A stretch of DNA of 52,106 bases from positions 1 through 52,106 of the forward strand of contig MGPH01000050.1 in NCBI GenBank assembly GCA_001797365.1, given 5' to 3'. Below, piece after piece: positions 2,149 through 22,176 of the stretch (within the stretch, counting starts at the first letter, position 1; each line of letters opens with the position of its first letter). Both the position numbers and the translations under genes were made by a program. The notes under the pieces were generated by a model that did no database searches, was not told where the DNA came from, and saw only the letters and a program-made list of their open reading frames with translations. The stretch comes from Deltaproteobacteria bacterium GWA2_45_12. GTDB lineage: Bacteria; UBA10199.

Positions 2149-3518
2149 GTCACTCCTGCTTTTAAACTATGAAAAGTGTTGAACTTGTTATCTTCAATTT
2201 CATAGGCCATTTTCGCCTTGAGATCCTTCTTTTTGGTAAGTATGGCTTCGGCATTGGTAAAATAAGTTCGGACATTGTCTGATTCATTTCCTGTAAGCAA
2301 ATTATAACGGTATAAATAAAACGCCGTTCCGGCACCCACCTTGAGACGTTTTTTGAGAAGATCCTGATTTGCCGAAAAAGACACCCCTGAGGTATTATTT
2401 TTGAGAACATTGTCCCGGCTATGGTAATAGTCGAAAGTGGTTGAAGTCGACAAACCCTTTACCAAAAAGTCCCGGCTCGATAAAGAAGTAAAAACCCGTT
2501 CAAATCCGTGGTTAAAGGCGCTTGCAATTTGCCTGTCATCTAAACGTCGCACCACAAAACCGCCATCGACTGAAAAATACTTGCTCATTTCCTTTGTGAC
2601 ATTTAAACCCCCTTCAGTATAGGGGCGATAACTGCCGGCGATACCATAAGCATCCCAGTCAACCACACGAATGTCATAGTCTTCCAGAAGACGGTACACA
2701 CGAAAACGAAAGGACAGCTTTTGTGGATCAAAACGGAGTGTGGAGGCCGCCTCAACATCACGCATCTCATCTGAAAAAGCACTCACGCGTCCAAAAACAT
2801 TCCAGATCTTTGTTAAATCAGCCCAAACCGAACCTGAAAGAAGTGTGTCCTCTTGATCTTGCTGGGTAATACGGAAACTGCTTGTATCATCTTTAAGATG
2901 AACGACATCTCCACGAAGCCTTAAACGGGCCAAAGGTGTCCATTGAACCGAACCGCCGAGAGTCCAATCTTTTTTCCCAACACCAATCTGGCTTTCATAA
3001 AGATGAACCGGCACACCTCCAAACGCAGAAAAAACGAGACCGTAATAAGGCCGGGTTGTCACCGAAGCACCATCAAAATACACAGAATCAATTTCATAGA
3101 TGTGCTGACGCCCCAAACGAGCCAGGCCAATGGGGCCCACTTTGCGCGCGTCAAAGTAGGCATGATACAAACGTCCAACAGCGCGGCTGGAATAACTATC
3201 ATAGATGCTGGAAAAAAGTTTATTGTCTTCCGCACCGTTGATATCAACGATAAGCCCTGCCTGAACAGAAGCTGAAAAACGATCATAATTCCCATGACCA
3301 AGGTTTAAATTGACGATCGATTCACTATCGTGGTCGGAAACAGCCCCCGTGGAGCGCAATTTATATCGTTGGGTGAGCGACCCCCAGAAAGAGTGCTCTT
3401 TTTCCTTTCCAAAAACAAATGAACTTGTTCCCAAACCTATTAAAAGGAAAATGACTATAAAGAATAAATAATGTGATTTCTTGGAAAAGATAGTTGGCTG
3501 TCTTGACTTAAGTTGCAA
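2136..3518 (-). CDS. Outer-membrane beta-barrel, putative porin of a porin-cytochrome conduit (copy 1)
   Basis: 460 aa. Start is a TTG at 3518 preceded by GAGAGG at a good distance; no ATG lies before the signal segment. A hydrophobic stretch at about 17-35 (LFFIVIFLLIGLGTSSFVFG) is a signal peptide. The rest alternates hydrophobic and polar residues with many aromatic and charged residues and ends in VTWNF, the terminal aromatic typical of outer-membrane barrels. No known enzyme motif is seen. It overlaps the nonahaem cytochrome gene by 13 bases. The same barrel/cytochrome pair recurs at 7699-9785 with the same overlap, which supports a functional complex such as the sheath of a transmembrane electron conduit. 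It lacks recognisable sequence identity to MtrB by eye, so the family is not assigned. Confidence 0.75.
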   Translation of the reverse strand: MQLKSRQPTIFSKKSHYLFFIVIFLLIGLGTSSFVFGKEKEHSFWGSLTQRYKLRSTGAVSDHDSESIVNLNLGHGNYDRFSASVQAGLIVDINGAEDNKLFSSIYDSYSSRAVGRLYHAYFDARKVGPIGLARLGRQHIYEIDSVYFDGASVTTRPYYGLVFSAFGGVPVHLYESQIGVGKKDWTLGGSVQWTPLARLRLRGDVVHLKDDTSSFRITQQDQEDTLLSGSVWADLTKIWNVFGRVSAFSDEMRDVEAASTLRFDPQKLSFRFRVYRLLEDYDIRVVDWDAYGIAGSYRPYTEGGLNVTKEMSKYFSVDGGFVVRRLDDRQIASAFNHGFERVFTSLSSRDFLVKGLSTSTTFDYYHSRDNVLKNNTSGVSFSANQDLLKKRLKVGAGTAFYLYRYNLLTGNESDNVRTYFTNAEAILTKKKDLKAKMAYEIEDNKFNTFHSLKAGVTWNF

Positions 3519-4297: not shown

Positions 4298-5737
4298 TCA
4301 TGGGGGGTCATCATGGCAAAAGTCACAATCTTGTGAAATGACTTTGCCTTTCTTGGTTTCGTGTTCGTCATCGTGACAACGAAAACATCCATAGCCCTCA
4401 AGTTCATATTCATGACCCAAATGACTTTTGTAAGTCCCCCAATCAATATTCATGTTGGGCCATACATTCCCCATGTATTGTTCCAGCAGATAATCTCCTG
4501 CTACTTGAATATCTTTTGAAAAGAGGTTTGCCTGTTCCTGGTTACGCTCGGTTTGAAGTCCCATGAGATATTGGCCAAGTTCACTCCGGGCTTCTTCCCG
4601 TGAGGCATATCCCTTCTTAAGGGCTTTGAGCCCGTCTTCCCTTAGTCCAATAATTTCAGGATTGATCTTTTTGCTCAACAAACCAAAATCAACAGCCTCT
4701 TCGGCAGACTTATAAATATGCGTCGGTCTGTTGTGGCAATCAACGCATTCCATCACACGCCACTTATTCTCTTTGTCAGCGGGAACTTCTTCACCATTGG
4801 AATATTCATTTATAGAACCATCCTCTTTTTTGACACGAACACGGGGAATGGAAGTACGCTTTTCATCGGCCGCCAGGAAACTGACCTGAATATCCCGGCT
4901 GACATGCCAATGAATGCCTTCAAAAGCTTCCGTCCGCGGGTTACGCCCCCCTATATGAAGGGCAATGTTTGTTTTATCGGGTTCCAATTGATTTTCATTG
5001 GTAAAATGAATGAAGGTTTTTGTCTTTTTGCCGGCAAATTTTTCGGACCAATGACATTGTTCGCAGGTCTCCCGGGAAAAACGTAAATGTTCAATGGGGG
5101 TGTGAATGGGTTTGTTATAGGTCCCCAACATGACGGCAGCCACCTGTCTTAGCCCGGAAATTTTTGCACGGACATACCAGTCAGCTCCTGATCCAATATG
5201 GCAATTCACACAATCAACGCGTGCATGGGGAGATCGTTGATAGACAGTGTATTCAGGTTCCATGACTTTATGGCAAATAGCCCCGCAAAATTGGTTTGAT
5301 TCCGTATAATGATATCCTTCGTAACTAATCATACCCAAAATAACGAAATTAATTGAAGTAAGCACAATAAAACCGATGACAAACAAACGATGCCGATGGT
5401 TACTCAGATTGATCTGCAAATGTTCCTTCTCGACACCATGCTTTTCCCAGTGTCTTCTTCGCAAATAAGCTGCCACGGGCATAATCAGAAGGCCTGCGAT
5501 CATTCCAACTGGAAGAACCAAAAAGATGAAAATTCCCAGATAAGCATTACGAAAAACACCCAGGAATTCAGCGGCCAACCCGATGATCATCAGGGTAGCA
5601 GAAATTGTGGTCAGCATTACACCCAATAATCCCAAAGGGGAACGCCATAGGCCGTGAAAAATATACGCCCATGGGCTTCGTTTTTTCTTGTGATCCCCGG
5701 AGGGGGATTGTGCTTGTCTTTCATCTTGTTGGGTCAT
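4298..5737 (-). CDS. NapC/NirT-type inner-membrane multihaem cytochrome (ImcH-like)
   Basis: 479 aa from the ATG at 5737, chosen because AGGAGA lies 7 bases upstream; an ATG eight codons earlier (5761) has no such site. Three hydrophobic segments lie in the first ~150 residues (LGLLGVMLTTISATLMIIG, a second with LVLPVGMIAGLLI, and FVIGFIVLTSINFVILG). The exported part has six haem motifs: CGAICH (CX3CH), CVNCH, CEQCH, CVDCH, CFRCH and CDFCH. The segment around CGAICHKVMEPEYTVYQRSPHARVDCVNCH is the NapC/NirT signature. Three N-terminal helices and this length resemble ImcH of Geobacter, a quinol dehydrogenase feeding extracellular electron transfer; the family is seen, the role is inferred. 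It probably passes electrons from menaquinol to the periplasmic cytochromes around it. Confidence 0.82.
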   Translation of the reverse strand: MTQQDERQAQSPSGDHKKKRSPWAYIFHGLWRSPLGLLGVMLTTISATLMIIGLAAEFLGVFRNAYLGIFIFLVLPVGMIAGLLIMPVAAYLRRRHWEKHGVEKEHLQINLSNHRHRLFVIGFIVLTSINFVILGMISYEGYHYTESNQFCGAICHKVMEPEYTVYQRSPHARVDCVNCHIGSGADWYVRAKISGLRQVAAVMLGTYNKPIHTPIEHLRFSRETCEQCHWSEKFAGKKTKTFIHFTNENQLEPDKTNIALHIGGRNPRTEAFEGIHWHVSRDIQVSFLAADEKRTSIPRVRVKKEDGSINEYSNGEEVPADKENKWRVMECVDCHNRPTHIYKSAEEAVDFGLLSKKINPEIIGLREDGLKALKKGYASREEARSELGQYLMGLQTERNQEQANLFSKDIQVAGDYLLEQYMGNVWPNMNIDWGTYKSHLGHEYELEGYGCFRCHDDEHETKKGKVISQDCDFCHDDPP

Positions 5738-5788
5738 TTGGGTTCTCCTAAAGTAAACCAACTTATTAAATTTCGAACCTGACTGTAA

Positions 5789-7698: not shown

Positions 7699-8424
7699 TT
7701 ACGGCATGGCATGACAGCTCAAGCAACTTCCACCATTGTCGGCATGGGTTAAATTAGCATGGCAGGTGCGACAATCAGCTCCTGCCACATGGAGGGGAAT
7801 GGTGTTGGGGGCTGCTGGGGCCGTAAGATGGGATGGGTTCTCTTGATGGCACACTCCGCAACGATCCGGGATGGAGACTGACAATGGGAAATGGCAACTC
7901 AAGCAGTGCGTATTCCGGGTGCTTCCCCACAGACCTGTGTGATCCACGGGTTTGGTCTCGCTGTGGCAGCGCGTGCAAAAATCATCGCTGATATGACATG
8001 CGGTACACTTGCTGCGATCAAGCCCCACAGTCAAACCATGCCCGCGGTTTTTCCAGAATACTGTGTGGTTTTGTGGAGGCTCTATCTGATGGCAGGATTC
8101 GCAAAATGAATCCGTATGGCATAAAGTGCAGATGTTTTCTTTTCGGTATCCGTATTTGAGTTGGGCATACTTGCCATGTTCCCTTTTCCAAACGATGTCG
8201 TGACTATTGTGACTTTTGGGAGCTTTGGTCGCCGATCTGCGGTCATCATGGCATTCCCTGCATTTGGTTGACGCATCAAAGTCTTTGTGATCGGCTTCCC
8301 AAGCCGAAACAAAATCAACATTGGGATCTCCCCAAGTATACGAACGCTTGCATTCCTTGTTCCCAAGAAGAACAGGGAGCAGCAAGAGGCCCATCCAAAA
8401 ATATTTGTTCCTTAAAAATTCCAT
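7699..8424 (-). CDS. Exported nonahaem c-type cytochrome (copy 2)
   Basis: 241 aa, paralogue of the protein at 1405-2148 along its whole length. Nine CxxCH motifs (CRECH at 55-59, CTLCH, CESCH, CTACH, CTRCH, CLSCH, CGVCH, CRTCH, CLSCH). A hydrophobic export segment (~9-20) is followed by GNKEC, matching GNKGC of copy 1. Shared blocks such as EREHGKYAQLK/KREHGKYAQLK and CHSETKP show strong selection. Its ATG lies 13 bases inside the barrel gene upstream. It is probably the periplasm-side or barrel-plugging cytochrome of the second porin-cytochrome pair. Confidence 0.85.
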   Translation of the reverse strand: MEFLRNKYFWMGLLLLPVLLGNKECKRSYTWGDPNVDFVSAWEADHKDFDASTKCRECHDDRRSATKAPKSHNSHDIVWKREHGKYAQLKYGYRKENICTLCHTDSFCESCHQIEPPQNHTVFWKNRGHGLTVGLDRSKCTACHISDDFCTRCHSETKPVDHTGLWGSTRNTHCLSCHFPLSVSIPDRCGVCHQENPSHLTAPAAPNTIPLHVAGADCRTCHANLTHADNGGSCLSCHAMP

Positions 8425-9785
8425 ATAAAACGAAAAGTTCCTGTATGAAAAGCATTCAGCTCGCTGTGCTCAAGCTCGTAACGCGTGACGATTTTTATAT
8501 TGTCAATAATTTTGGTTCCATACTCGGCAAAATAAGTTTGAACATCACTTTCTTCATTGCCTGTCAATAAGTTATACCAATACAAGTAATAAGCCGTTCC
8601 AAGGGTAAACTTCATATCCTTGTCTTTAAGGGTTTTGTGCTTCTTGAATAAGGCCTGGGAAGCAGAAAAAGAAGCCCCCACCGAATTATTTTTAAGGGAA
8701 TTATCCTCACCGTGATAATAATCAAAGACGGCATTGGTAGACAGCCCATCAATCAGGAAATTCTGGCTAAGAAATGAAAAATACCCCCGGCTAAATCCGT
8801 GATTAAAAGCACTGACACTTTGGGCATCATCAAGAATGCGTTTAGCACCTCCCACATCAATACTAAAAAATTTGCCCAGCCCTTTTGTCAGGTTCGCTCC
8901 AATTTCAGTATAGGGCTGATAAACTCCTGCAAAATTCATCGCATCCCAGTCACTCACGCGAATGTCGTAGGATTCAAGCAAGCGATAAGCCTGAAGCCGG
9001 ACTGTCAGAGATTTTTCTGGAAATAACAAGGTGGCGGCCAATGTGGCATCCCTTAACTCATCCGAAAAGGAAGTGAGCCGGCCAAAGACGTTAAAATTTT
9101 TGCTGGCATCAATCCAAAGGGAAGCTCCCAAGAGATTGTCTTCCTGATCCCCTTGGCTCAGTCTTAACCCGACATCGTCATCCTTGATGTGGGAATAATC
9201 AAACTTGACCCTCACAATGCTCACCGGGTTCCATTGAATGCCTCCGCCGACAATCCAATCCCCCACGTCCGTCCCAAGTTTTTTTTCATAGAGATGAACG
9301 GGAATACCCCCGAAGGCACTCACCACAAACCCAACAAAGGGGATTGTTTCAAAAGAAACCCCATCAAAATAATGATGCTCGATGCTTTGAAGATGTTGGC
9401 GCCCCGCACGAACGTAGCTGATGGGATCAAGCTTGTTAATATTGACATAGGCGTGATAAAGCCGCCCGACAACATCGCCTGAATAAGCGTTATTGATGCC
9501 GGAGAAAACATTGGTGTCTTCGTCCCCATTGAGATCGGAAATGATGCCCCCTTGAAGAGACCCCGTGACACGGTCCCAATTAGGGTTTCCAAAATTCAAA
9601 GAAAGAATGTCTTCCAAATCGTGATCCGAAAAATCTCCGGTAGTCCGAAATTTATACCTGTTCGTTAAATAGCCACTGACAAAACTATTCTTTTTCTTTT
9701 TGGGAGTGGCAGCAAACACATCGGCTACCCCCAAAAATGAAAAAACAATAAGAAAAGACACTATTTTAGAAAAGAAAGAAGTCAT
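8412..9785 (-). CDS. Outer-membrane beta-barrel, putative porin of a porin-cytochrome conduit (copy 2)
   Basis: 457 aa. Signal peptide at about 5-26 ending FAA, then a Lys-rich start and amphipathic strand patterns to the C-terminal FIWNF. It is clearly paralogous to 2136-3518: blocks such as VGRLYHAY, GRQHL/GRQHI, FGGIPVHLYE, NHGF and YLYWYNLLTGNE recur in the same order. It overlaps the following nonahaem cytochrome by 13 bases, exactly as in copy 1. Together with that cytochrome it probably forms an outer-membrane electron conduit; this is inferred from the pairing, not from a recognised family. Confidence 0.75.
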   Translation of the reverse strand: MTSFFSKIVSFLIVFSFLGVADVFAATPKKKKNSFVSGYLTNRYKFRTTGDFSDHDLEDILSLNFGNPNWDRVTGSLQGGIISDLNGDEDTNVFSGINNAYSGDVVGRLYHAYVNINKLDPISYVRAGRQHLQSIEHHYFDGVSFETIPFVGFVVSAFGGIPVHLYEKKLGTDVGDWIVGGGIQWNPVSIVRVKFDYSHIKDDDVGLRLSQGDQEDNLLGASLWIDASKNFNVFGRLTSFSDELRDATLAATLLFPEKSLTVRLQAYRLLESYDIRVSDWDAMNFAGVYQPYTEIGANLTKGLGKFFSIDVGGAKRILDDAQSVSAFNHGFSRGYFSFLSQNFLIDGLSTNAVFDYYHGEDNSLKNNSVGASFSASQALFKKHKTLKDKDMKFTLGTAYYLYWYNLLTGNEESDVQTYFAEYGTKIIDNIKIVTRYELEHSELNAFHTGTFRFIWNF

Positions 9786-9982: not shown

Positions 9983-11872
9983 TTAGGGTAATGGGATGTG
10001 ACAATAACTTGTACATAGATCAGGGGCCCGAAATTCAAGAACGGGGGATCCTCGTCCATTAAAGTGACAATTTCCTTCAGAGCCCCCACATGTATTTTCT
10101 ATGGCCTCAAATACTGCCGGATTTTCAACCCCATTCACAAATTGGGCCTGATGATTTCCATTTTCGTCCACCAATAATGGGTTTCCAAAAATATAAGAGA
10201 GATGAGCTAAATGCTCGCTTGCAGGCGCCCAATCATTAATGCGCCTTCGACCATTCGGCCTTGGATTTCCATACTCAACCCTGACATGGGGAAAGGCCCA
10301 ATGACAACGATAACAATCAGATTGCTGCGCAAGGCCTTCCAATGTGTCGTTCAAAGTAAAAGTAACAGGAGTTCCATGACAATGCCCGCAGGAGGCATTA
10401 ATCCACACATCCACTGAGTTTGGATTTGAATACTGGCTGACATAATAAGCCCCATGCCCCTGGCCATCGGCCCAAGGTTCAGGAATGTTTCGATGCGTCA
10501 CTCCACTGGGATGACAACCCGCCGCCGTACACGAAACACCATTGACCACACGATCATAATCCTGCCCGTGGCATTCGGTGCAGGCATCGTTATCCCCGGC
10601 TCTTACCTTTGCAATAAAGGTCGTCATATGGGTTGGGTTTTGTTCGGCCATCCAGTTTGGATCAAGTTGGTGGGGGTAATTGGGATGGCAATCCTGATTG
10701 ACACATCCCTTAATAAGGGGTTCACGACCTGAAAAATCGGGGCTGTGGCAATTGGCTGAATTACAGTTGTTCTTTCCTTCTCCATAAGCGGCCACTCCAT
10801 GTTGAGCCGCTTGCACCCAGTTTTCATTGTGGGGATAAGTAGTATGACAGTTGGCATTGTAGCAGGAAATATTTGAATTACCGCCCTGGAAATCGTTCCC
10901 ATGACACAGCTTGCACCCCTCTTTTCCATTGAGCAAAGTCACAACTCCATGTTGATCGGGCTGGGGCCATTGTTCATTGTGAGGGAAACTGGCATGGCAG
11001 TTGGCATAACAACTTACCCCTGAAATCCCACCGGTAAAATCATCTCCATGGCATGTTTTACATGCATTTTTTCCTTCTCCCAGGGCTGCAGAGCCGTGAG
11101 TTTCCTGGCGCCAATTATCAGGGTGGGGGTAAGTCGCGTGGCAACTGGCATTGTAACAAGACACATTGGAGATACCGCCTTGGAAATCCTGCCCATGACA
11201 GTCTTTGCAATCTTCTTTTCCTTGGTCATGAGCAAAAAATCCATGTTTTTCTACTTGAGCCCAACCCGACGGATGCGGATAAGTCGCGTGACAATTGGCA
11301 TTGTAACAAGAAGGTCCGAAAACCCCTCCTTTGTAATCTTCCCCATGGCAACTCTTGCAAGATTCTTTGTCGTTCTGAATGACATATAGTCCGTGACTAT
11401 CGGCCGCGGCCCAACCTTCCGGGTGATGGCAGCTTTGGCAAGAAATCCTGGATAACCCGCTAGCCAAATCGGCTCCATGACAATCGGTGGCACAGCCTGC
11501 TGTGCCATTATCACGCACATAAGCGCCATGGTTGATTGGGTCCTTCCAATTTTCCATGTGAGGAAAAAGCGGATGACAACTAATACAGGTGGGGGCCTCT
11601 TTTCGAAGATTGTGGCAAAGAATGCACAAACTGGAATTGGGGTCTTGACCGTTTTGAAGGGTGGATTGGTAAGCCGCCCCATGGTTTACAGGGGCCTTAA
11701 AATTCTTGGCATGAGGGTAATAAACAGGGGCCCCCCCACTTGGATTGGGGGCCCCAATATTCGGATCGGGTTCAACTAATGGAATTGCATTGGGTGTTCG
11801 CCCGCAATGCACCCCCATGAAGGAAGAAAAAACAAACAAGAATATAAAAAAGTAAGTTTTAGGGGCCATCAT
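9983..11872 (-). CDS. Giant multihaem c-type cytochrome with 50-residue dihaem repeats (18-20 haems)
   Basis: 629 aa. N-terminal hydrophobic segment (~6-21) then VHCG, with Cys at 23 in a lipoprotein-like but non-canonical position (His at -1). Haem motifs: CILCH, CISCH, CATDCH, CQSCH, then alternating CX2CH and CX4CH pairs (for example CKSCH ... CYNANCH) through about residue 400. After these come CTECH, CTAAGCH, CGHCH, CYRCH and a terminal CTSYCH. One further CX6CH (CGGSEGNCH) is uncertain. The repeats carry YPH and xHG histidines that may be distal ligands. The first ~165 residues are nearly collinear with the protein at 12068-14260. Possible roles are a periplasm-spanning or surface electron wire; location is not decided by the sequence. 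Confidence 0.85.
   Translation of the reverse strand: MMAPKTYFFIFLFVFSSFMGVHCGRTPNAIPLVEPDPNIGAPNPSGGAPVYYPHAKNFKAPVNHGAAYQSTLQNGQDPNSSLCILCHNLRKEAPTCISCHPLFPHMENWKDPINHGAYVRDNGTAGCATDCHGADLASGLSRISCQSCHHPEGWAAADSHGLYVIQNDKESCKSCHGEDYKGGVFGPSCYNANCHATYPHPSGWAQVEKHGFFAHDQGKEDCKDCHGQDFQGGISNVSCYNASCHATYPHPDNWRQETHGSAALGEGKNACKTCHGDDFTGGISGVSCYANCHASFPHNEQWPQPDQHGVVTLLNGKEGCKLCHGNDFQGGNSNISCYNANCHTTYPHNENWVQAAQHGVAAYGEGKNNCNSANCHSPDFSGREPLIKGCVNQDCHPNYPHQLDPNWMAEQNPTHMTTFIAKVRAGDNDACTECHGQDYDRVVNGVSCTAAGCHPSGVTHRNIPEPWADGQGHGAYYVSQYSNPNSVDVWINASCGHCHGTPVTFTLNDTLEGLAQQSDCYRCHWAFPHVRVEYGNPRPNGRRRINDWAPASEHLAHLSYIFGNPLLVDENGNHQAQFVNGVENPAVFEAIENTCGGSEGNCHFNGRGSPVLEFRAPDLCTSYCHIPLP
10766..11359 (-). 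repeat. Four in-frame dihaem repeat units of 49-50 residues
   Basis: Within the 629-aa cytochrome, units begin at Cys 172, 222, 271 and 320 and end before 370. Each has one CX2CH, an FxGG segment, a second motif CYNANCH or variant, then YPH/FPH, W and HG. Unit length drops from 50 to 49 in the third and fourth. Confidence 0.8.
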
Positions 11873-12067: not shown

Positions 12068-14260
12068 TTATTCAACATGGCATGCCGCTTCGCAATAAGT
12101 ATTGAAAACATGCCAACCGGGATGTTGCCTATTATTGTTATGACATACGCCGCCGCTGGCACCGTAACAGCCCCCTTGATCCATAGTCGACGTCAAAACA
12201 CTTTCAACGCGATCCCTGCATTCCTGAGTACGACAGTTGTTGTCCAAATTGATGCCCGCATAGCCCTCATTATAATAAATAAAGTTTCTATGACCCTCTT
12301 CCCATTGTTGAGAAATAACAATTCCAAGATCAGCTAGGATAGGATCAATTGCCTCGTAATAGACATGAGGATAAGTGGGATGACACGCTTGGTTGTAACA
12401 ACGTTTCACACCATTTTCAGTGAAATCACTAATGAGTGTGGGAGGACTTTCGTTGTCAAATAAGACCGTTGGGCCATGGCAATTTCTGCATTGGGCATCA
12501 AAAACGGGTTGATTGAATTTATCGTAAGGACTTTGCCAGTAAAAATTTTTCCTTAAAACCGATGATCCATGATTTTCGGCCTGGATCCAGTTTTCATCAT
12601 GGGGATAATTTGCATGGCATGTAAAACAGCTCCATGTGTCATTTTCATAATGGCACTTGGCGCATTCTTCGGTTCCTTCGAGAAGAGCATATTGTCTGTG
12701 TCCCTCTTGCCCTTCATCATGCCATACATCACGGTCCCAATGGTTGTCAGGAAATGATGGATGACAATCAGCATTTCCACAATTGGGCAGGCCACGGGCT
12801 ATCCCCTGATCGCCATGACACTGACTGGTTTGACATGTTTGGTCGATATTTTCATAAATATCCCCTGGCATGGCCTTTAGCTGACTACCGTGTTCATCTT
12901 GCCAAGCTTCAAGATGGGGATAAGCAGTGTGGCAATTGGCATTGTAACAGGAGACTCCTGATATGCCTCCGTTAAATTCTTCTCCGTGACAAGCTTTGCA
13001 ATCTTCCTTTCCATTTTGAAGAGCGAAGACACCATGGTTTTCAACTTGGGCCCAATCGGCTTGGTGAGGATAATTGGCATGACAGTTGGCGTTGTAACAA
13101 GTGATACCCGAAATCCCTCCGGTAAAATCATCTCCATGACAGCTCTTACATTCATTTTTTGCATCTCCAACGGCAAGGGCCCCATGATTTTCGGGTTGAG
13201 CCCAATTCTCAGTGTGAGGATAACTGGCATGGCAATTAGAATTATAACAAGTGACCTCTGATATCCCGCCTTTAAAATCTTCCCCATGGCAGTTTTTGCA
13301 TTTTGTCACTCCGGTTAACAAGGCAAACATCCCATGTTGATCAAACTGGGCCCATTGTTCGTTGTGAGGGTAACTGGCATGGCAATTGGCATTGTAACAA
13401 GTAACCCCTGAAATCCCTCCGGTGAAATCATCCCCATGACAAGTTTTACAATCTTCCTTGCCATTTTCATGGGCAAAGAGTCCGTGATTTTCCACTTGCA
13501 CCCAATCGGCTTGATGCGGATAAGTTGTATGACAATTGGCGTTGTAGCAGGAAATATTTGAAATGCCCCCTTTAAAATCTTCCCCGTGGCAACTCTTGCA
13601 ATCTTCTTTTCCCTCCTCATGGGCAAAGAATCCGTGGTTCTCGACCTTGGCCCAATCGGCTTGGTGCGGATAGGTTGTGTGGCAACTGCTGTTATAACAA
13701 GAAGTGTTTGTAACACCGCCCTTGTAATCTTCCCCATGGCATTTTTTGCATGATTCCTTGTCGTTTTGAATGACATACAAACCATGGGTATCCGCAGCGG
13801 CCCACCCTTCGGGATGGTGGCAACTCTTGCATGAAATTCCGGATAAGCCATTTGTCAAATCGGCTCCGTGGCAGTCTGTTGCACAATTTGCGGTCCCATT
13901 CTCACGAACATAGGTTCCATGATTAAGAGGATCCTTCCAATTTTCTATATGAGGAAACTCCGGATGACAACTGCCGCAGGTGGGGGAATCTTTGCGGAAA
14001 TTATGGCAAATAACGCACAAACTTGATTTGGAATTCTGATTGTTACGAATGGTTGCCCGGTAGGCATCCCCATGGGTGGCAGGATTTTTCCAACCCTCGG
14101 CATGGGGATAATAAACAGGGGCCCCACCACTAATATTGGGAGCTCCCGCATTGGGATCAGGCTCAACCAAAGAAACTGCATCGGGCGCGCTTCCACAATG
14201 CACTACAGTCAAAGCAAAAAAAACGAAAAAAAATAGTAAAAACCAATTTTTTGGGAACAT
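12068..14260 (-). CDS. Giant multihaem c-type cytochrome with exact 50-residue dihaem repeats (22-24 haems)
   Basis: 730 aa. Hydrophobic N-terminus (~5-20) and VVHCG with Cys 22. Motifs begin CVICH, CGSCH, CATDCH, CKSCH. Then six repeat units follow with CX2CH at residues 171, 221, 271, 321, 371 and 421, each paired with CX4CH (CYNANCH type) at +17. Later motifs are CQTSQCH, CGNADCH, CAKCH, CFTCH, CRNCH, CYNQACH and a terminal CEAACH; a CX7CH (CYGASGGVCH) is doubtful. The mature protein shares a Pro/Gly-rich start (VEPDPNAGAPN) with its neighbour at 9983. It follows the second NrfD gene on the same strand across a 178-base gap with its own operator-like site. Likely a long multihaem wire linking the quinol-oxidising modules to the outer membrane; inferred. 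Confidence 0.85.
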   Translation of the reverse strand: MFPKNWFLLFFFVFFALTVVHCGSAPDAVSLVEPDPNAGAPNISGGAPVYYPHAEGWKNPATHGDAYRATIRNNQNSKSSLCVICHNFRKDSPTCGSCHPEFPHIENWKDPLNHGTYVRENGTANCATDCHGADLTNGLSGISCKSCHHPEGWAAADTHGLYVIQNDKESCKKCHGEDYKGGVTNTSCYNSSCHTTYPHQADWAKVENHGFFAHEEGKEDCKSCHGEDFKGGISNISCYNANCHTTYPHQADWVQVENHGLFAHENGKEDCKTCHGDDFTGGISGVTCYNANCHASYPHNEQWAQFDQHGMFALLTGVTKCKNCHGEDFKGGISEVTCYNSNCHASYPHTENWAQPENHGALAVGDAKNECKSCHGDDFTGGISGITCYNANCHANYPHQADWAQVENHGVFALQNGKEDCKACHGEEFNGGISGVSCYNANCHTAYPHLEAWQDEHGSQLKAMPGDIYENIDQTCQTSQCHGDQGIARGLPNCGNADCHPSFPDNHWDRDVWHDEGQEGHRQYALLEGTEECAKCHYENDTWSCFTCHANYPHDENWIQAENHGSSVLRKNFYWQSPYDKFNQPVFDAQCRNCHGPTVLFDNESPPTLISDFTENGVKRCYNQACHPTYPHVYYEAIDPILADLGIVISQQWEEGHRNFIYYNEGYAGINLDNNCRTQECRDRVESVLTSTMDQGGCYGASGGVCHNNNRQHPGWHVFNTYCEAACHVE
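12911..13750 (-). repeat. Six exact-length tandem dihaem repeats (150 bp each)
   Basis: Residues 171-450 of the 730-aa cytochrome repeat with a strict 50-residue period and no insertion or deletion. Each unit holds CKxCHGxxF, GGIS, CYNxNCH, YPH, W and ENHG. Nucleotide similarity between units is also high, so they may still recombine. Confidence 0.85.
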
Positions 14261-14438: not shown

Positions 14439-15743
14439 TTACTGCCAAGAAGAGGAAAACCATTTTTTCCAAGAGGAAGGAGGTTTGCTTTCGGTCCAAT
14501 CTTGATTCACATAGCGCGGTTCATAGATCTCTTCTTTTTCCATGACAAGTTCATCGGTTAATATGGCAATGGCCACTTTTGTGGTGATGGTAAACATGAG
14601 GGCTCCCAAGGACACAACCCCCAGACATACAAAAATTTCTCCCATATTCGGCACATACTCGACGATTTCTCCCAAAGGAGTGGGAATAAAACCGGGAAAA
14701 ATAAGCCCCATGCCTTTTTCGATCCAAATGCCGATGATCGTCATGACACAAGCCCCCAGAAAAATTCTTCGATCCGAACGGAGCCTTGGAACCACGACAA
14801 TAATGGTCGACAGAATATTGAATGCTGTCGCTGTCCAAATAAACTTGGTGAGCATATTGTGGCCATCCAATCCGAAAAAAAGATACCTGGCAGACAAGGC
14901 ATGAATGGTATTGGGATATAGTTCCTTAAACAGCTCACAGCCAAGAAGAAACAGGTTAATGGGCAAAGTCACCTTCATGATATTGAGCAAGTAGGCGAAA
15001 ACGGATGGCTTAACATGTAGCTTGGTTTGACGATTGATGATTTCGAAAATAATGGTCAGAAGGGCCGGACCAACAGCAAATGCCGTGATGAGAAAACGAG
15101 GCGCCATAATGGCCGTATTCCAGAAATAGCGGGTTCCCAGACCAGAAAGCAAAAATGCGGTGACCGTGTGAATGCTGACAGCGAAAAAAATCGATACAAA
15201 AACCAATGGGAGATAAAAATAGGGCTGAGGTTTTTCCCCCTTATACCTCATGTACAAAAGATAACCGGGAATATGTAAATTCAAGGCAAGGTAAACATTG
15301 AAAACAACCACGTCCCAGGCCAAAAGGGAGCTGGGAAGATTGAGCTGGCCGCCAATCAAAGGAATGAGGTGCCATAAACGTTCGGGTCTTCCAATGTCAG
15401 TGGAGATAAAAAGCAGACACATCACAATGGCTGTGAAAGCAAGCTGTTCCCCGAGAATGACCACTTCTTTGATGTCTTTATTTCCTTTGACGTAAGCAGG
15501 ATAGACCAAGAGAACAGCAGACGCTGCCACACCTACAAAGTACACGAAATTGGCGATCCCGATGCCCCAGCTCACCTGGTCACTCATGTTGGTAACCTCA
15601 AGCCCTGCCACAAGATGATGGTGATAACTAAAGCCACCAATAGCCAAAAAAAAGCCAAGGACGCCCAGCCAAATATAATAAAGCCGCCCGCCGGTCAAAG
15701 CACAGCGGGTCATGCGCATCCAGTATTCGAGATAGTTCATCAT
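14439..15743 (-). CDS. NrfD/PsrC-family membrane quinol-oxidising subunit (module copy 1)
   Basis: 434 aa, polytopic, with about ten hydrophobic segments. The first segments (LGVLGFFLAIGGFSYHHH, then QVSWGIGIANFVYFVG) and later blocks RPERLWHLIP, LNLHIPGYLLYMRY, FAVSIHTVTAFLLSG and EKGMGLIFPGFIPTPLGEIVEY are those of NrfD-like subunits of complex iron-sulfur respiratory enzymes, which bind quinone in the membrane and exchange electrons with a ferredoxin partner. It follows the ferredoxin gene by 21 bases. No molybdopterin or other catalytic subunit is nearby, so this module probably moves electrons between quinol and the tetrahaem cytochrome. Paralogue at 18442-19686. Confidence 0.87.
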   Translation of the reverse strand: MMNYLEYWMRMTRCALTGGRLYYIWLGVLGFFLAIGGFSYHHHLVAGLEVTNMSDQVSWGIGIANFVYFVGVAASAVLLVYPAYVKGNKDIKEVVILGEQLAFTAIVMCLLFISTDIGRPERLWHLIPLIGGQLNLPSSLLAWDVVVFNVYLALNLHIPGYLLYMRYKGEKPQPYFYLPLVFVSIFFAVSIHTVTAFLLSGLGTRYFWNTAIMAPRFLITAFAVGPALLTIIFEIINRQTKLHVKPSVFAYLLNIMKVTLPINLFLLGCELFKELYPNTIHALSARYLFFGLDGHNMLTKFIWTATAFNILSTIIVVVPRLRSDRRIFLGACVMTIIGIWIEKGMGLIFPGFIPTPLGEIVEYVPNMGEIFVCLGVVSLGALMFTITTKVAIAILTDELVMEKEEIYEPRYVNQDWTESKPPSSWKKWFSSSWQ

Positions 15744-15764
15744 AGCTAATTAATCCTCTCAACA

Positions 15765-16703
15765 TTAACCGAAGTAATAAAAAAACTGTGGGATTGTGTT
15801 CAGATCCTCCTTCAGAACAAAAATATTCTTGTGCTTTAGAATGTAATAAACCTCGCTATTCGGATCCAGGATATTCCCAAATTTTCTGGCTCCCGTGGGA
15901 CAAGCCTCGAGGCAGGCCGGATATCTGCCATTGCGCGTGCGGTGGAGACAAAAAGTACATTTTTCGACCACGCCACGCATTCGAATCCGGTTACTTAAAT
16001 AAGCCTGATTCGGATTAATTTCTTCGGCGGGAACCTCAGGCGCATGGAAGTTGAAATGCCGGGCCTCATAAGGACAGGCCGCCTGGCAATAACGGCAACC
16101 GATGCACCAGTTATAATCGATGACAACAATCCCGTCTTCTTGCTTCCAAGTGGCTTTAATGGGACAGGCGCGCGTACAAGGGGGGCTTTCGCACTGGTTA
16201 CATTGGACGGGCAGATAAAACTTCCCTTCTTTGGGAACTTGCCCATCATAGTAACGGTTGCCCTTCTCAAGATTAAAGTTCCCCTTATCCATCTCAAGAA
16301 CCTTGATATAGCCAAACGAGCGGTCAGTGTTGTTTTCCTTCTGGCAAGCCGCCACGCACAAACGATTCCCGTTGCACTTGGTGAGATTTAAGCCATAAAC
16401 GAATTTGACTCCCGGAATGGGTTGAGGATCGGTAATATGCACGTCAACCCCATATTTGCTTTTGGTTTCGGCCTCCAAACGCTCAAAAATTCTTTTTTTG
16501 TCATCCGGCGTGAGATTTTTGTAATGCTTCTGAAAAAAGGATTCAAACGAGAAGGCTTGGGATTCCGCCGGATTTCCGACAACGGCCGCCGCCGCAACCC
16601 CCACAAGACCCTTCAGGAAACTTCGACGGGATGCCTTCCCCTTAAGTTTTTTTTTGGCCAGCAGTCCGGCCCGTAGTCCTGTATCTGTCTTTTTCATGTT
16701 CAT
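15765..16703 (-). CDS. Tat-exported four-cluster ferredoxin subunit, first cluster missing one Cys (module copy 1)
   Basis: 312 aa from the ATG at 16703, which overlaps the TGA of the upstream cytochrome as ATGA; an upstream TTG is less likely. A twin-arginine signal SRRSFLKG precedes a hydrophobic stretch. Cys motifs: CNGNRLCVAAC, CNQCESPPCTRAC, CIGCRYCQAAC and CTFCLH...CLEAC, the four [4Fe-4S] pattern of DsrO/NrfC/PsrB-type proteins. In the first motif the second Cys of CxxCxxCxxxC is Asn (codon AAT), whereas copy 2 has a full CVGCRRCVYAC. The first cluster may therefore be a [3Fe-4S] or be tuned or lost. It sits between its cytochrome and NrfD partners. Confidence 0.85.
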   Translation of the reverse strand: MNMKKTDTGLRAGLLAKKKLKGKASRRSFLKGLVGVAAAAVVGNPAESQAFSFESFFQKHYKNLTPDDKKRIFERLEAETKSKYGVDVHITDPQPIPGVKFVYGLNLTKCNGNRLCVAACQKENNTDRSFGYIKVLEMDKGNFNLEKGNRYYDGQVPKEGKFYLPVQCNQCESPPCTRACPIKATWKQEDGIVVIDYNWCIGCRYCQAACPYEARHFNFHAPEVPAEEINPNQAYLSNRIRMRGVVEKCTFCLHRTRNGRYPACLEACPTGARKFGNILDPNSEVYYILKHKNIFVLKEDLNTIPQFFYYFG

Positions 16704-17398
16704 AAAACCCAAAAGGTATTCACGGGTGGCACTGAAGTTTTCTTTGTATCCATGGGCTTGAACTTAGGGTCATGAGGATCGTGACATTCCGGACACGAGT
16801 ATACCTCGCGCGGTCCGTTCCACAACCCGACCCGCTTCCCATGGGCGTTTTTATTCCATTTGTTGAGGAGGTCACCATGACATTCCCCGCAGATAAGATA
16901 GGATTCGTTGAAGTTGATTTCTCGCCCACTCTGAAGAATGAGTTTCTTGTAATTGCCTTCCAGATGGCAGTTATGACACCACCTTTCCTCCACACCTTCC
17001 TTAGCCGCAAAATGAAGCTTTTTATCAGTGTGTTCTTCATTCAGAATACGCTTCGTTGGGTTAAAATCCTTGGACGTACTGTGGCAATCATCACAGGGAT
17101 ACATTTCTAATTTGGGAATACGTTTGATGACCTTATCTCCTTCCGGACCGGGAACAGGTGGTCCCCCACCCATGCTAAGTACGGGCGCGGTTTCCTCTGC
17201 GGGTTCCGTGCTCCAACTTGCAAAAGCAGGAAACAAGGCAAGCCCCAAAATAAATCCTGCGATCAATGGTATGCACCCCAGGGCAAGCCCTGGACCCAAG
17301 ATTCCGTGGCAAGCCACGGGGTTTTGACCCAGTAAGGCTCGTCCCCGAAGCCAACGAGCGTAGGGGATAAGAATAGATTGTCTTGGGCCAAATATCAT
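16700..17398 (-). CDS. Exported tetrahaem cytochrome c with repeat-derived insert in its N-terminus (module copy 1)
   Basis: 232 aa with four haem motifs: CDDCH, CHNCH, CGECH and CPECH. The C-terminal ~150 residues match copy 2 (20632-21279) closely (YPCDDCHST, ERWCHNCH, LICGECHG, SCPECHDPHDPKFKP). Copy 2 begins MTYGLRQPVLK then directly a hydrophobic signal. Copy 1 has about 35 extra residues (about 12-47, bases 17258-17365) that are encoded by a dispersed repeat also present at 24651-24774. The reading frame is kept and a hydrophobic signal GFILGLALFPAFA follows. By position it resembles NrfB/DsrJ-type cytochromes that accept electrons from the ferredoxin subunit. Confidence 0.82.
   Translation of the reverse strand: MIFGPRQSILIPYARWLRGRALLGQNPVACHGILGPGLALGCIPLIAGFILGLALFPAFASWSTEPAEETAPVLSMGGGPPVPGPEGDKVIKRIPKLEMYPCDDCHSTSKDFNPTKRILNEEHTDKKLHFAAKEGVEERWCHNCHLEGNYKKLILQSGREINFNESYLICGECHGDLLNKWNKNAHGKRVGLWNGPREVYSCPECHDPHDPKFKPMDTKKTSVPPVNTFWVL
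17262..17365. repeat. Dispersed repeat inserted in-frame in the tetrahaem cytochrome signal region
   Basis: Begins atcaatggtatgcaccc and shares a 46-bp block with 24651-24696 with only two mismatches; further similarity (ggctcgtcc, ccaacgagc, gtagg) continues to about 17365. It is absent from the paralogous gene. The insert adds about 35 codons without a stop. Confidence 0.75.
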
Positions 17399-17429
17399 CC
17401 GATGCTCAATTCTTGGAAAGAAGGGTTTT

Positions 17430-18299: not shown

Positions 18300-18411
18300 G
18301 GATGTTTTTTCTCCTATGATGGTTATGCAATCAAACTGCTTCTGTCGTTCATGCCAAAACCCATATCAGCTCCTTCATAAAACCAGCCATGACTCAGATC
18401 ATGTGCACAAA

Positions 18412-18423: not shown

Positions 18424-18441
18424 TGGCTCAAAAAGTGCGAA

Positions 18442-19686
18442 TCATTCTTCCTTACTCATTTTCGGAAAATCGAGGGATTCTTCCTGCCATCTCAGCTTTC
18501 CAGATTCAATGGGAATCGCCGCTTTCAAAAGAAGGGTAAAAATAAAAAATCCCGTAGCCCAAATACCCACGCAAACTTGAATCTCCGTAAGAGAAGGAGC
18601 ATATTCGACAATGTCACCCAAAGGAGTGGGAATGAATCCCGGCACAATGAGCCCCATGCCTTTCTCAATCCAGATGCCCACAATAGCGCATCCTGACGCG
18701 ATATTGATGTAAAGCCGGTTTTGATTGAGCCCGGGGCTAATGTAAGTGATAGTTGCAATAATATTGAGGACAATGGCAGTCCAGATAAACGGGACTAAAA
18801 GGTGATAGCCGTGCAACCCCGTAAAAAGATATTGAGCGGAGGCACTGTGGACTGAATCGGTGTAAAACTCTTTGAACAGCTCACATACCAGAAGAAAAAG
18901 ATTAATCACAAGCGTGACTGCGATGATTCTCTTTAAAACCTTATAAACTTCATGATCCACTTTAAGACTCGAGAACTTTTCAATGACCTGTAGGGACAGG
19001 AGAATAAAAGAAGGTCCTACTGCAAAGGCAGATGCTAAAAAACGAGGCGCTATGATGGCCGAATTCCAGAAAGGCTTACCCCCGAGACCTGAATAGAGAA
19101 AAGCCGTCACAGTATGAATGCTGACAGCCCAAAAGATGGAGATCATCACAAAGGGCATGTAATAATGTGAAGTTGGTTCCTGACCCCGATATTTTTTATA
19201 GAGAAGATAACCAGGAATGTGCAGGTTCAAGAGCAAGTAACCATTAAGCACAATCACGTCCCAGGTCAACATCGAGATGGGCCAGTTCATGCGACCAAGC
19301 TTTGGAATTAAGTGCCATAGACGGTCTGGCCTGCCCATATCTACGGTTACAAACAAGAGGCACATGACAATCGACGCAATGGCAAACAGTTCCCCCACAA
19401 GAAGAATCTCTTTTATGGACTTGATCTTGTAGACATAGGCAGGAATCACCAGCATAACAGCTGCTGCAGCCAAACCGACAATATAGGTGAAATTGGCAAT
19501 ATAGGCGCCCCAGGATACCTGGTCGGTCATGTTGCTGAGAATGAGACCTTCTTGAAGTTGCCGCGCATAGCCCGCGACTCCTATCAATATCAACACACCC
19601 AGGAAACCCAGCCAGGCAAAGTAAATACGGGGGCCTTGGTAGACCTGCCGGATCATATCTTTCCAGAATTGAATATATGCTGACAT
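18442..19686 (-). CDS. NrfD/PsrC-family membrane quinol-oxidising subunit (module copy 2)
   Basis: 414 aa, about ten hydrophobic segments, collinear with 14439-15743: WLGFLGVLILIGVAGYARQ, QVSWGAYIANFTYIVG, RPDRLWHLIP, LNLHIPGYLLYKKY, SIHTVTAFLYSGLGG, EKGMGLIVPGFIPTPLGDIVEY. The C-terminus is about 20 residues shorter than copy 1. NrfD-type subunits hold the quinone site and hand electrons to a periplasmic ferredoxin. It is the last gene of module copy 2, 32 bases after the ferredoxin gene. Confidence 0.87.
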   Translation of the reverse strand: MSAYIQFWKDMIRQVYQGPRIYFAWLGFLGVLILIGVAGYARQLQEGLILSNMTDQVSWGAYIANFTYIVGLAAAAVMLVIPAYVYKIKSIKEILLVGELFAIASIVMCLLFVTVDMGRPDRLWHLIPKLGRMNWPISMLTWDVIVLNGYLLLNLHIPGYLLYKKYRGQEPTSHYYMPFVMISIFWAVSIHTVTAFLYSGLGGKPFWNSAIIAPRFLASAFAVGPSFILLSLQVIEKFSSLKVDHEVYKVLKRIIAVTLVINLFLLVCELFKEFYTDSVHSASAQYLFTGLHGYHLLVPFIWTAIVLNIIATITYISPGLNQNRLYINIASGCAIVGIWIEKGMGLIVPGFIPTPLGDIVEYAPSLTEIQVCVGIWATGFFIFTLLLKAAIPIESGKLRWQEESLDFPKMSKEE

Positions 19687-19718
19687 ATTTTAAATCCTAA
19701 AACTTGAATGCCATTAAC

Positions 19719-20675
19719 CTAATCAAAAAAATAATAAAAATGCGGATATGTTTTTAAATCTTCCTTAAGAACAAAAATCCGCTTTTCCTGAATAATGTTT
19801 CTCACCTCGCTATTCGGGTCTAAAAGATTCCCGAATTTTCTGGAACCTGTTGGGCATGCCTCAAGACATGCCGGGTAACGACCCTGACGCGTCCTGTGAA
19901 GACAAAACGTACATTTTTCCATAACCCCACGCGGACGAATACGGTTTGAAAGATATCCCTGCTCAGGATTGATCTCTTCAGCGGGTATTTTGGGAGTTGC
20001 AAAATTAAAGCGTCTGGCCTCGTATGGGCAAGCAGCTTCGCAATACCGGCAACCAATGCACCAGTTGTAATCGATAACGACAATGCCATCCTTCTCCTTC
20101 CAGGTTGCTTCGACAGGACACACCTTGGTACAAGGCGGATTCCGGCACTGATGGCACTGAACAGGCATGTAGAATTTGTCTTTTCGAGGAACTTGGTCCG
20201 TATCGTAATATATGTCACCCTTTTCCACGTCGAGCGAGCCTTTGGGAATTTCAAGAACTTTAATGTATTGTATTTGTGGGTCACGCGATTGGTTATTTTC
20301 AGCCACACACGCATAAACACATCGCCGGCATCCGACACATTTTGAAAGATTGAGAAAATAGGCAAACTCGACTCCATCCATCGGCGGCGGATCGCCAATC
20401 CGGACTTTAACCCCGTATTTCTTCTCAGTTTCTTTTTCCAGACGAGCAAAAATCCTTTTTTTATCCTCGGGAGTAAGCTCCTGGTAATGCCTTTGGAAGA
20501 ATTCCCCCTGAAGAAATCCATCGATGGTAAACGCCTGGCTGGACTCAGGTGAAAGCGCCATCGCCGAAGCGACACCGGCAACAGCACCTTTCAAAAACGT
20601 TCGCCGGGAAACCGTCTTCTTTAGCTTGCGATCAATGAGGTGTTTCGTCCTCTTTGTGTTTCTGTTTTCCTTCAT
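19719..20675 (-). CDS. Tat-exported four-cluster ferredoxin subunit, complete Cys set (module copy 2)
   Basis: 318 aa from the ATG at 20675 (GGAA upstream); a TTG at 20690 would add five residues. Twin-arginine motif SRRTFLKG. All four Cys motifs are intact: CVGCRRCVYAC, CHQCRNPPCTKVC, CIGCRYCEAAC and CTFCLH...CLEAC, so four [4Fe-4S] clusters are expected. Related to DsrO/NrfC-type subunits that bridge an NrfD protein and a c-type cytochrome. The gene overlaps the end of the tetrahaem cytochrome gene by 44 bases. Compare with copy 1, where one Cys of the first cluster is Asn. Confidence 0.87.
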   Translation of the reverse strand: MKENRNTKRTKHLIDRKLKKTVSRRTFLKGAVAGVASAMALSPESSQAFTIDGFLQGEFFQRHYQELTPEDKKRIFARLEKETEKKYGVKVRIGDPPPMDGVEFAYFLNLSKCVGCRRCVYACVAENNQSRDPQIQYIKVLEIPKGSLDVEKGDIYYDTDQVPRKDKFYMPVQCHQCRNPPCTKVCPVEATWKEKDGIVVIDYNWCIGCRYCEAACPYEARRFNFATPKIPAEEINPEQGYLSNRIRPRGVMEKCTFCLHRTRQGRYPACLEACPTGSRKFGNLLDPNSEVRNIIQEKRIFVLKEDLKTYPHFYYFFD

Positions 20676-21279
20676 AAATAAAATTTCCAAACAAGAGCTT
20701 CAAAAATGATCGACTTTTCCCTTTTGGGAGCACGGGCGGCGGCTTGGGTGTGAGTGGTTTGAATTTAGGATCATGGGGATCGTGGCATTCCGGACACGAA
20801 GATACTTCACGCGGCCCGTTCCATAACCCGACCCTTTTGCCGTGTATGTTCTTGTTCCAGTCATCTAAAATCGTACCATGGCATTCTCCGCAGATAAGAT
20901 AGGTCTCATTAAAGGTGATCTCCCGTCCACTTTGAAGATAGAGTTTCTTGTAATTTCCTTTCTGGTGGCAGGTATGGCACCATCTTTCTTCTTGACCGTC
21001 CGTGGCTGCGAAATGGAGCTTTTTGTCGGTGTGTTCCTCATCCAGCACGCGCTTCTCTGTGTTGAAATCCCCAGGCGTGCTGTGACAGTCATCGCAGGGA
21101 TACATTTCAAGCTTGGAAATGCGTTTAAGAATCTTATCCCCCCCAATTCCGGAAACCGGCTGAGCTGACGTCACCGGTGGGTTCGCAGATTCCGCACCCT
21201 GACTTACAAAGGCAGGAAGCAAGGTGAGCCCTAAAAGGAACCCTACTTTAAGAACGGGTTGTCTTAGACCATATGTCAT
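20632..21279 (-). CDS. Exported tetrahaem cytochrome c (module copy 2)
   Basis: 215 aa. Signal peptide (VGFLLGLTLLPAFVSQGA) and four haem motifs CDDCH, CHTCH, CGECH and CPECH. GGAG sits 6 bases before the ATG at 21279. It lacks the N-terminal insert of copy 1 and represents the ancestral layout. Its C-terminus (about 25 residues, Lys-rich, including SRSFLKLLFGNF) is longer than that of copy 1 and runs over the start of the ferredoxin gene. Likely the electron exit of a quinol-oxidising slipin/cytochrome/ferredoxin/NrfD complex. Confidence 0.85.
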   Translation of the reverse strand: MTYGLRQPVLKVGFLLGLTLLPAFVSQGAESANPPVTSAQPVSGIGGDKILKRISKLEMYPCDDCHSTPGDFNTEKRVLDEEHTDKKLHFAATDGQEERWCHTCHQKGNYKKLYLQSGREITFNETYLICGECHGTILDDWNKNIHGKRVGLWNGPREVSSCPECHDPHDPKFKPLTPKPPPVLPKGKSRSFLKLLFGNFIYEGKQKHKEDETPH

Positions 21280-21309
21280 TCGATGCTCCGTTCTTAAAAG
21301 AAAAGATTT

Positions 21310-22176
21310 TTAAACTGTCACTTTTTTTTGCGGAGCTTGCTGGGCTAAGGCAGCCAAACCCGTCATGGCGCCCAATCCCATCGTCTCAACAGCCGAGGAG
21401 GGGACAATAATAACGGATGAGTTCTGCCTCATTCCTTCCAACAAGATATTCATGGCCCTTAAGTGCAAGGCTGTGGGGTTGTCTTTGTACCTCTCAGAAG
21501 CTTTTTCGAATTTTTCAGCCACCTGAAGTTCCGATTCGCCAAGAATCACCCTGGCCTGTCTTTCCCTTTCAGCCTGGGCTTGCATGGACATGGCATTCTG
21601 CAATGCCTGGGGGATTTTCACATCCCTTAGTTCCACCGATAAAACCTTGATCCCCCATGCGGTGGCACTGGCATCGATTCTTGCACAGAGTTTGTGATCA
21701 ATTTCCCGCCTGCCCACAAGCATTTCGGACAAATCGGTTTCACCAATCACATCCCGAAGGGCTGTTTGCGAAGCCCATGAAACCGCTTTCTTGAAATTTT
21801 CGACTTCCAAAGCGGCTTTTACCGGATCAATCACACGCCAGAACAAAACAGCATCCACATCCACGGGGACACTGTCTTTTGTCAGGGTTTGCTCTGCGGT
21901 AAACGGGGTAGCCACGGTTCTAAGGTCAATGCAGTAGGGGATCGTATCGACAAACGGGATGATGGAAAAAAAGCCCGGGCCTTTAAGCCCATTAAATTTA
22001 CCAAAACGCAACATCACAACTCTTTGCCATTGGCTAACCACACGAAAAATGAAAATACAAAGGCCCCCCGAAAGAAATCCAAGCACACCAAAAGCAGCAT
22101 GACTTGTGGCTAGCGCCCCGCCCACCCCAAGTATTGTTATGCTTAAGGCTAAAACTAAAATAAATGGATGCATCAT
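21310..22176 (-). CDS. SPFH/band-7 protein (slipin-like), first gene of module copy 2
   Basis: 288 aa, collinear with 17430-18299 and highly similar in the SPFH domain (QWQRVVMLRLGKFNG-like start, FSIIPFVDTIPYCIDLRT, FTAEQTLTKDSVPVDVDAV, QAQAERERQARVILGESE, SSAVETMGLGAMTGL). Two N-terminal membrane segments. GGAG precedes the start codons. As the promoter-proximal gene of the whole 22-14 kb run it carries the operator-like site about 107 bases upstream. Keeping a slipin in both module copies implies that it works with the redox subunits. Confidence 0.85.
   Translation of the reverse strand: MMHPFILVLALSITILGVGGALATSHAAFGVLGFLSGGLCIFIFRVVSQWQRVVMLRFGKFNGLKGPGFFSIIPFVDTIPYCIDLRTVATPFTAEQTLTKDSVPVDVDAVLFWRVIDPVKAALEVENFKKAVSWASQTALRDVIGETDLSEMLVGRREIDHKLCARIDASATAWGIKVLSVELRDVKIPQALQNAMSMQAQAERERQARVILGESELQVAEKFEKASERYKDNPTALHLRAMNILLEGMRQNSSVIIVPSSAVETMGLGAMTGLAALAQQAPQKKVTV

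Follow-up and report, generated by a model that had tools for sequence, protein, structure and literature searches.

A putative haem-wire cytochrome built of dihaem modules and encoded beside a candidate outer-membrane barrel in Deltaproteobacteria bacterium GWA2_45_12

Described electron conduits and the gene cluster

The protein analysed here is of a kind that is not new: multihaem proteins that resemble wires, giant cytochromes built from repeats and extracellular cytochrome filaments are all known already, and cytochrome wires have mostly been studied as polymers or as proteins of fixed length. MtrCAB combines a barrel with a cytochrome on the periplasmic side and a surface lipoprotein cytochrome, in Cyc2 an outer-membrane barrel carries a monohaem cytochrome at its N-terminal end, and the Geobacter CxxxxCH...CXXCH domain (PF09698, TIGR01904), which by name pairs CX4CH with CX2CH, is repeated in several proteins. 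OmbB-OmaB-OmcB is described as a barrel with a periplasmic-side cytochrome and a surface lipoprotein cytochrome (PMC12307469). The PCC3 systems described by He et al. 2017 pair a barrel with very large, repeat-built multihaem cytochromes that have 22-39 residues per haem and were proposed as wires (PMC5566968). The GSU1996-type nanowire was solved as a linear crescent of 12 haems, with three haems, one of them His-Met, per domain (PMC10138318), and the OmcS filament is reported to rise 48 Å per subunit of six haems (PMC6584659).

The window, a stretch of 52,106 nucleotides from Deltaproteobacteria bacterium GWA2_45_12, carries a cluster whose genes between 22176 and 7699 are without exception on the minus strand and comprise two SPFH/tetrahaem/Fe-S/NrfD copies, two repeat cytochromes (A730 and B629), a barrel and a 9-CXXCH cytochrome. 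The features of this region and of the adjoining genes are:

1405..3518, minus strand: second barrel (460 aa) and 9-CXXCH cytochrome (247 aa), 50% and 59% identical to the first pair
4298..5761, minus strand: NapC/NirT-family multihaem membrane cytochrome, 487 aa
7699..8424, minus strand: exported cytochrome, 241 aa, 9 CXXCH, overlapping the barrel gene
8412..9785, minus strand: candidate outer-membrane beta-barrel, 457 aa (signal peptide and C-terminal Phe, judged by eye), no Pfam match
9983..11872, minus strand: B629, paralogous repeat cytochrome, 20 candidate sites, 62% identical to A730 over 473 aligned positions
12068..14260, minus strand: A730, multihaem cytochrome, 730 aa, 24 candidate haem sites, 12 modules
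14439..15743, minus strand: NrfD-family integral membrane quinone subunit (DsrP-like)
15765..16712, minus strand: 4Fe-4S subunit with Tat-type signal; best NCBIfam match DsrO, below cut-off
16700..17398, minus strand: tetrahaem cytochrome, 232 aa
17430..18299, minus strand: SPFH/Band 7 protein
18442..22176, minus strand: second NrfD/Fe-S/cytochrome/SPFH module, 52-76% identical to the first

The four-gene SPFH/tetrahaem/Fe-S/NrfD module at 14439-22176 is a complete tandem duplication, and a DUF2339 membrane protein encoded on the opposite strand (5925-7682, plus strand) splits the cytochrome cluster. Similar sets of NrfD and Fe-S proteins with multihaem cytochromes have been proposed, for the MBNT15 phylum, as quinol-linked entries to periplasmic cytochromes (PMC9386147). 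Cytochrom_C_asm proteins are present in the same genome and are, in our reading of their length and order, CcmF- and CcmC-like; no ResB was found there, and a suspected in-frame TGA in the CcmC-like gene was dropped, as the frame reads open. A second electron-transfer locus of this genome (L059; contig C24, 20001-40000) encodes a 1149-aa multihaem protein with LVIVD-like repeats, judged by eye, a barrel-like protein, and cyclic-nucleotide-type domains fused to ferredoxin.

The dihaem module and the terminal cap

The 730 residues of A730, all encoded on the minus strand, divide into the following parts:

14195..14260, minus strand: signal peptide; Cys22 is the candidate lipoprotein Cys (VVHC, off-consensus at -1)
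14018..14194, minus strand: N-terminal cap with the first YPH...HG His pair, before any haem motif
13886..14017, minus strand: module 1 (CX2CH, CX2CH)
13751..13885, minus strand: module 2 (CX3CH, CX2CH)
13601..13750, minus strand: module 3 (CX2CH, CX4CH), first of the six regular units
13451..13600, minus strand: module 4 (CX2CH, CX4CH)
13301..13450, minus strand: module 5 (CX2CH, CX4CH)
13151..13300, minus strand: module 6 (CX2CH, CX4CH)
13001..13150, minus strand: module 7 (CX2CH, CX4CH)
12836..13000, minus strand: module 8 (CX2CH, CX4CH), 55 residues to the next motif
12170..12835, minus strand: modules 9-11, diverged and irregularly spaced; motifs at residues 476, 494, 533, 545, 591 and 621
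12071..12169, minus strand: C-terminal cap module with CX7CH (CYGASGGVCH, 12140-12169), then CX3CH, two residues from the protein end

Over the whole protein, the motif count gives 24 candidate sites (12 CX2CH, 2 CX3CH, 9 CX4CH and 1 CX7CH), in agreement with the 22-24 haems expected by an earlier note on this DNA. That note had described an array of six dihaem units starting at Cys 171, 221, 271, 321, 371 and 421, and indeed each contains CKxCH, a CX4CH at +17, YPH and HG; the array is not confined to them, as the pattern extends over all of A730 in 12 dihaem modules, two ahead of the six units and four diverged ones behind. The units had been said to follow one another with no length change, which holds for five exact 50-residue steps but not for the 55 residues that separate the sixth from the next motif, and to share CYNxNCH, whereas the first of the six CX4CH motifs reads CYNSSCH. 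Self-identity over residues 101-480 reaches 162 matches (49%) at offset 50, whereas the runner-up among offsets 30 to 69 gives 12%, and Tandem Repeats Finder detects a 150-bp period in the A730 DNA (4.1 and 2.2 copies, 68-76% matches). Rapid unit slippage is not supported, since modules 3-8 (A3-A8) are 57-77% identical as DNA, with 77% between A4 and A7.

The alternation of CX2CH with CX4CH, which had been taken as the key feature, did not hold up as such, since relatives show CX2CH, CX3CH or CX4CH at either place. The standard motifs of 39 family proteins comprise 630 CX2CH, 98 CX3CH and 72 CX4CH; many relatives alternate CX2CH and CX3CH at the first motif from one unit to the next, which makes mixed spacings a common trait and the CX4CH series of the window a local version among others. 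Because relatives with the same array have CX2CH at both places, CX4CH appears to be a haem site that has locally gained two residues, and one CX4CH of A730 is a CX3CH in B629. A comparison of the two paralogues over 445 codons, in which codon-position identities were used because NG86 dS was saturated, found that all 33 Cys and 33 of the 35 His are conserved, with a match of 44.5% at codon position 3. That CX4CH motifs are haem sites, as previously claimed, thus gains indirect support from their alignment with CX2CH motifs of relatives and from the retention of all 33 Cys.

The arrangement of His residues relative to haem motifs was examined in the window and 28 loci, which yielded 39 proteins with at least two unit hits, 37 of them with at least four. 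When these 37 were reduced to haem motifs, PH and HG as the only tokens, the order PH-HG-haem-haem occurred 259 times, compared with a mean of 22.8 and a maximum of 40 in 200 token shuffles, and accounted for 518 of 786 tokenised motifs. PH lies upstream in 301 of 366 haem pairs, HG or HA in 345 and both in 287, counted without shuffle control, and in each of the 37 proteins the His residues outside the motifs are at least as numerous as the haem motifs. The module boundary was set before PH because nearly all family proteins open with the His pair and most, apart from those with extra tails, stop shortly after the last motif. As read from these sequences, the actual module is [YF]PH-HG-CXXCH-CXnCH, with one candidate axial His per haem, and the His pair precedes the haems that it probably ligates. 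Family proteins have 26-60 residues per standard motif (median 34). A two-unit profile (A2) was built from 47 of 56 segments chosen by a pattern requiring CXnCH and PH. Selection therefore accounts for part of the invariance at those columns, but not for that of the HG His in the first unit.

The arrays also share an unusual ending. A CX5-7CH motif stands last or next to last in 28 of 37 proteins (15 CX7CH, 6 CX6CH and 7 CX5CH), with a loop that is 48% Gly and often reads CGGGTxGxCH; only three occurrences lie at other positions. To our knowledge CX5-7CH falls outside the spacings of standard c-type haem attachment, and no use of CX5CH, CX6CH or CX7CH as multihaem or haem-binding motifs was found among the matches listed by a literature search. 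The unusual spacing would suit a reading in which the CX4CH and CX5-7CH sites are haem-free, with a portion of the array binding a different metal or forming disulphides. We consider this highly improbable, given the CX2CH motifs found at the CX4CH position in relatives and the complete Cys conservation between the paralogues; moreover, including CX5-7CH raises the number of proteins with an even motif count from 11 to 32 of 37, and CX4CH occurs in cytochrome c3 (PMC10454114). If real, a CX5-7CH haem site would broaden the range of attachment motifs, and counts of CXXCH would miss one haem in most members.

Family distribution, length variation and barrels

A730 found matches in 25 of 60 genomes, its own counted, while profile A2 matched 24 of 46 genomes of the window's phylum at 1e-10; in a wider draw of 385 genomes it matched 43 at 1e-8, of which 19 were labelled only 'same domain'. 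A relative from outside this phylum, in Deltaproteobacteria bacterium GWA2_38_16 (L021), contains a run of 17 units matched by pattern, most of them spaced 47 residues from the next, with CX2CH at both motifs; 12 of 290 sampled genomes of that phylum match at 1e-18. Relatives were identified by mechanical ORF calling, in which the longer frame is retained wherever frames overlap; start codons may be incorrect, and family members can be missed, as happened to the family frame in L069 and L071.

Searches of Pfam and NCBIfam with A730 produced no match above a curated cut-off, including those of Cytochrome_C7 and Cytochrom_c3_2, and the 47 two-unit segments gave weak generic matches and no specific model. 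A Pfam match of A730 to FANCL_C (E 1.9e-5, below cut-off) was taken for a Cys-rich artefact. Relatives such as L021, L042 and L024 do exceed the Pfam Cytochrome_C7 cut-off, and since some relatives pass generic cytochrome c7/c3 cut-offs, the family is regarded as a branch of the broad small-module multihaem cytochromes. The PDB sequence search with A730 found no match, and profile A2 found weak matches to nitrite reductases (best E 0.027). Searches of the open-access literature listed no description of the dihaem repeat module; a large survey of multihaem families reports 76 new ones (PMC11475568), of which the A730 module may be one. A search of phages for the repeat cytochrome found none, and a search of plasmids found one Emticicia protein with a different repeat.

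The suggestion that array length changes by gain or loss of units agrees with what the family contains. The 37 relatives range from 4 to 27 unit hits and from 8 to 56 motifs, the motif number being about twice that of unit hits, and A730 differs from B629 by 24 to 20 sites. The DNA of L038 repeats with periods of 306 and 156 bp (80-85% match), which represent two-module and one-module copying. Two species of one genus (G009 and G020; loci L033 and L035) have nine unit hits each, so length is not changing fast at that depth. At an OmcS-like spacing, 24 haems would reach ~19 nm and 56 haems ~45 nm. Such a natural series of ~4-27 modules would allow conduction to be followed against length within one architecture and would provide ready building blocks for the design of haem wires.

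Of 28 related loci, 12 have a gene for a homologous barrel no more than 4.5 kb away and on the same strand; of the 16 without it, some are on short contigs. These barrels are mostly followed by a 7-motif and a 2-motif cytochrome. In two loci, the modules and the barrel are joined in one protein: G001 (L024:323-2497, minus strand) has six dihaem modules (12 motifs, module spacing 44-45 residues) fused ahead of the barrel, and G004 (L044:7381-9036, plus strand) has two (4 motifs). The barrel part of both fusions scores an iE of ~1e-90, and both genomes belong to the same order; a fusion query in a draw of 290 genomes returned only these two as joined proteins among the matches listed. The window's own barrel family occurs in 9 of 46 genomes, all nine of which carry the repeat cytochrome, itself present in 24 of the 46 (Fisher p 0.0016). 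When this barrel was compared with the family beside other cytochromes, the HMM gave no hit and hhalign a probability of 34%, which makes it at best a very remote relative; it belongs to a second group.

A loose lipobox pattern is matched by 30 of 37 family proteins; that of A730 has His at -1. C-terminal Big_5 Ig-like domains were present in three of six relatives scanned, these three having been chosen for their long tails; the repeat cytochromes of L033, L034 and L046 end in two such domains each, which suggests surface display. For the L024 and L044 fusions, the placement of the modules ahead of the barrel is easier to reconcile with modules in the periplasm or inside the barrel than with modules at the surface.

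These observations bear on two other functions that could be assigned to A730 and B629. Paralogues lying side by side and arrays of variable length would fit storage capacity as well as reach, and a capacitor role has been described for the monomeric, multi-domain haem protein GSU1996 (PMC10138318). An electron store in the periplasm or on the surface, with no role in long-range conduction, nevertheless appears unlikely, because the barrel association and fusions, together with probable lipidation, point to a trans-membrane path; capacitor and wire roles are not exclusive. We consider it very unlikely that the two proteins polymerise head to tail and form filaments of micrometre length, in the manner of OmcS or OmcZ. 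The N-terminal His pair could ligate a haem of the neighbouring subunit, much as OmcS takes one His from the neighbouring molecule (PMC6584659), but lipoprotein anchors and a distinct C-terminal cap better suit a tethered, finite rod, variable subunit length would be needless if polymerisation set the length, and the PDB search with A730 gave no sequence match to any solved cytochrome filament (OmcS, OmcE, OmcZ or archaeal).

Proposed conduit and comparison with known systems

We favour, as the probable explanation, a model in which A730 is an outer-membrane lipoprotein haem wire of a porin-cytochrome conduit, carrying 24 c-type haems, whose length is set by the number of modules. A730 would be exported and, as an outer-membrane lipoprotein of 12 two-haem modules, would form the distal, probably surface-exposed, part of the conduit encoded by the same cluster. 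Within each module, the upstream His pair ([YF]PH and HG) would provide the distal ligands to the next two covalently bound haems; if so, all haems would be bis-His ligated, and adjacent modules would form one continuous haem chain. Electrons would pass from the quinone pool through the NrfD/Fe-S/tetrahaem complexes or the NapC-type cytochrome to the 9-haem cytochrome in or behind the beta-barrel, and from there through A730 and B629 to an extracellular acceptor, or would flow in reverse. Chain length would depend on module number, with whole modules duplicated or lost. The family would mark extracellular electron exchange as a likely trait of this uncultured phylum.

AlphaFold was applied to six units (339 aa, 13 rows) and returned a pLDDT of 36, with little alignment diversity and superimposed L021 rows, while three units (18 rows in register) gave a best of five at pLDDT 60.5 and pTM 0.43, the other four lying at 41-47. 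No geometry was drawn from the three-unit model, and with this low-confidence model Foldseek and VIA-align found no fold match in the PDB, solved cytochrome filaments included.

It is decidedly unlikely that A730 belongs to a described family, although the Geobacter C4xC/C2xC repeat cytochromes, the GSU1996-type triheme nanowires and the PCC3 cytochromes share the same design idea. The Geobacter domain pairs the same two spacings by name, but its models (PF09698, TIGR01904) find no match in A730 up to E 10; their matches elsewhere in the genome are below cut-off. GSU1996 and GSU0592 (c7-type, TIGR04257) are likewise single polypeptides of tandem haem domains; TIGR04257 has no match to A730, in which every ~44-55 residues contain two haems together with an apparent His pair, in contrast to the three-haem, partly His-Met domains of the GSU1996 type. 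PCC3 cytochromes are described as having repeats with at least one haem site each and a low residue-to-haem ratio (PMC5566968), and the window, with its barrel (judged by eye) beside a giant repeat cytochrome, shows the PCC3 layout. It is set apart by description: PCC3 is reported to include very large porins, whose predicted transmembrane regions number up to 42, more than 457 aa could accommodate, and a conserved, unannotated ~300-aa inner-membrane protein (PMC5566968), whereas the window has a 457-aa barrel and an NrfD/Fe-S or NapC entry. Genes between 7699 and 22176 are otherwise accounted for and include no PCC3-type ~300-aa inner-membrane protein. The cytochrome of Emticicia plasmid pEMTOL02 (L073, 5800-8802) is also repeat-built, with ~40 CXXCH in 1001 aa, but its repeat is different, lacks the PH-HG grammar and is 25.6% identical to A730. 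On this Bacteroidota plasmid, the gene adjoins a cytochrome c biogenesis gene.

What appears to be new, as far as could be found, is the dihaem module, its extendable range, the C-terminal cap and the barrel fusions. We put forward tentatively, and as a possibility more than an expectation, that these define an undescribed family of single-chain haem wires, tuned in length by dihaem modules (8-56 sites), barrel-plugged or barrel-fused, and closed by a conserved terminal glycine-rich CX5-7CH (mostly CX7CH) haem site. The cluster resembles OmbB-OmaB-OmcB and MtrCAB in its layout, and differs from both in that the putative surface cytochrome is a homogeneous, extendable repeat array; the OmcA/MtrC models (TIGR03507, PF22113) have no match to A730. 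The L024 and L044 fusions have the same N-terminal order as Cyc2, but place 12 and 4 haem motifs, respectively, before the barrel where Cyc2 has one haem; they are candidates for a single-gene multihaem conduit.
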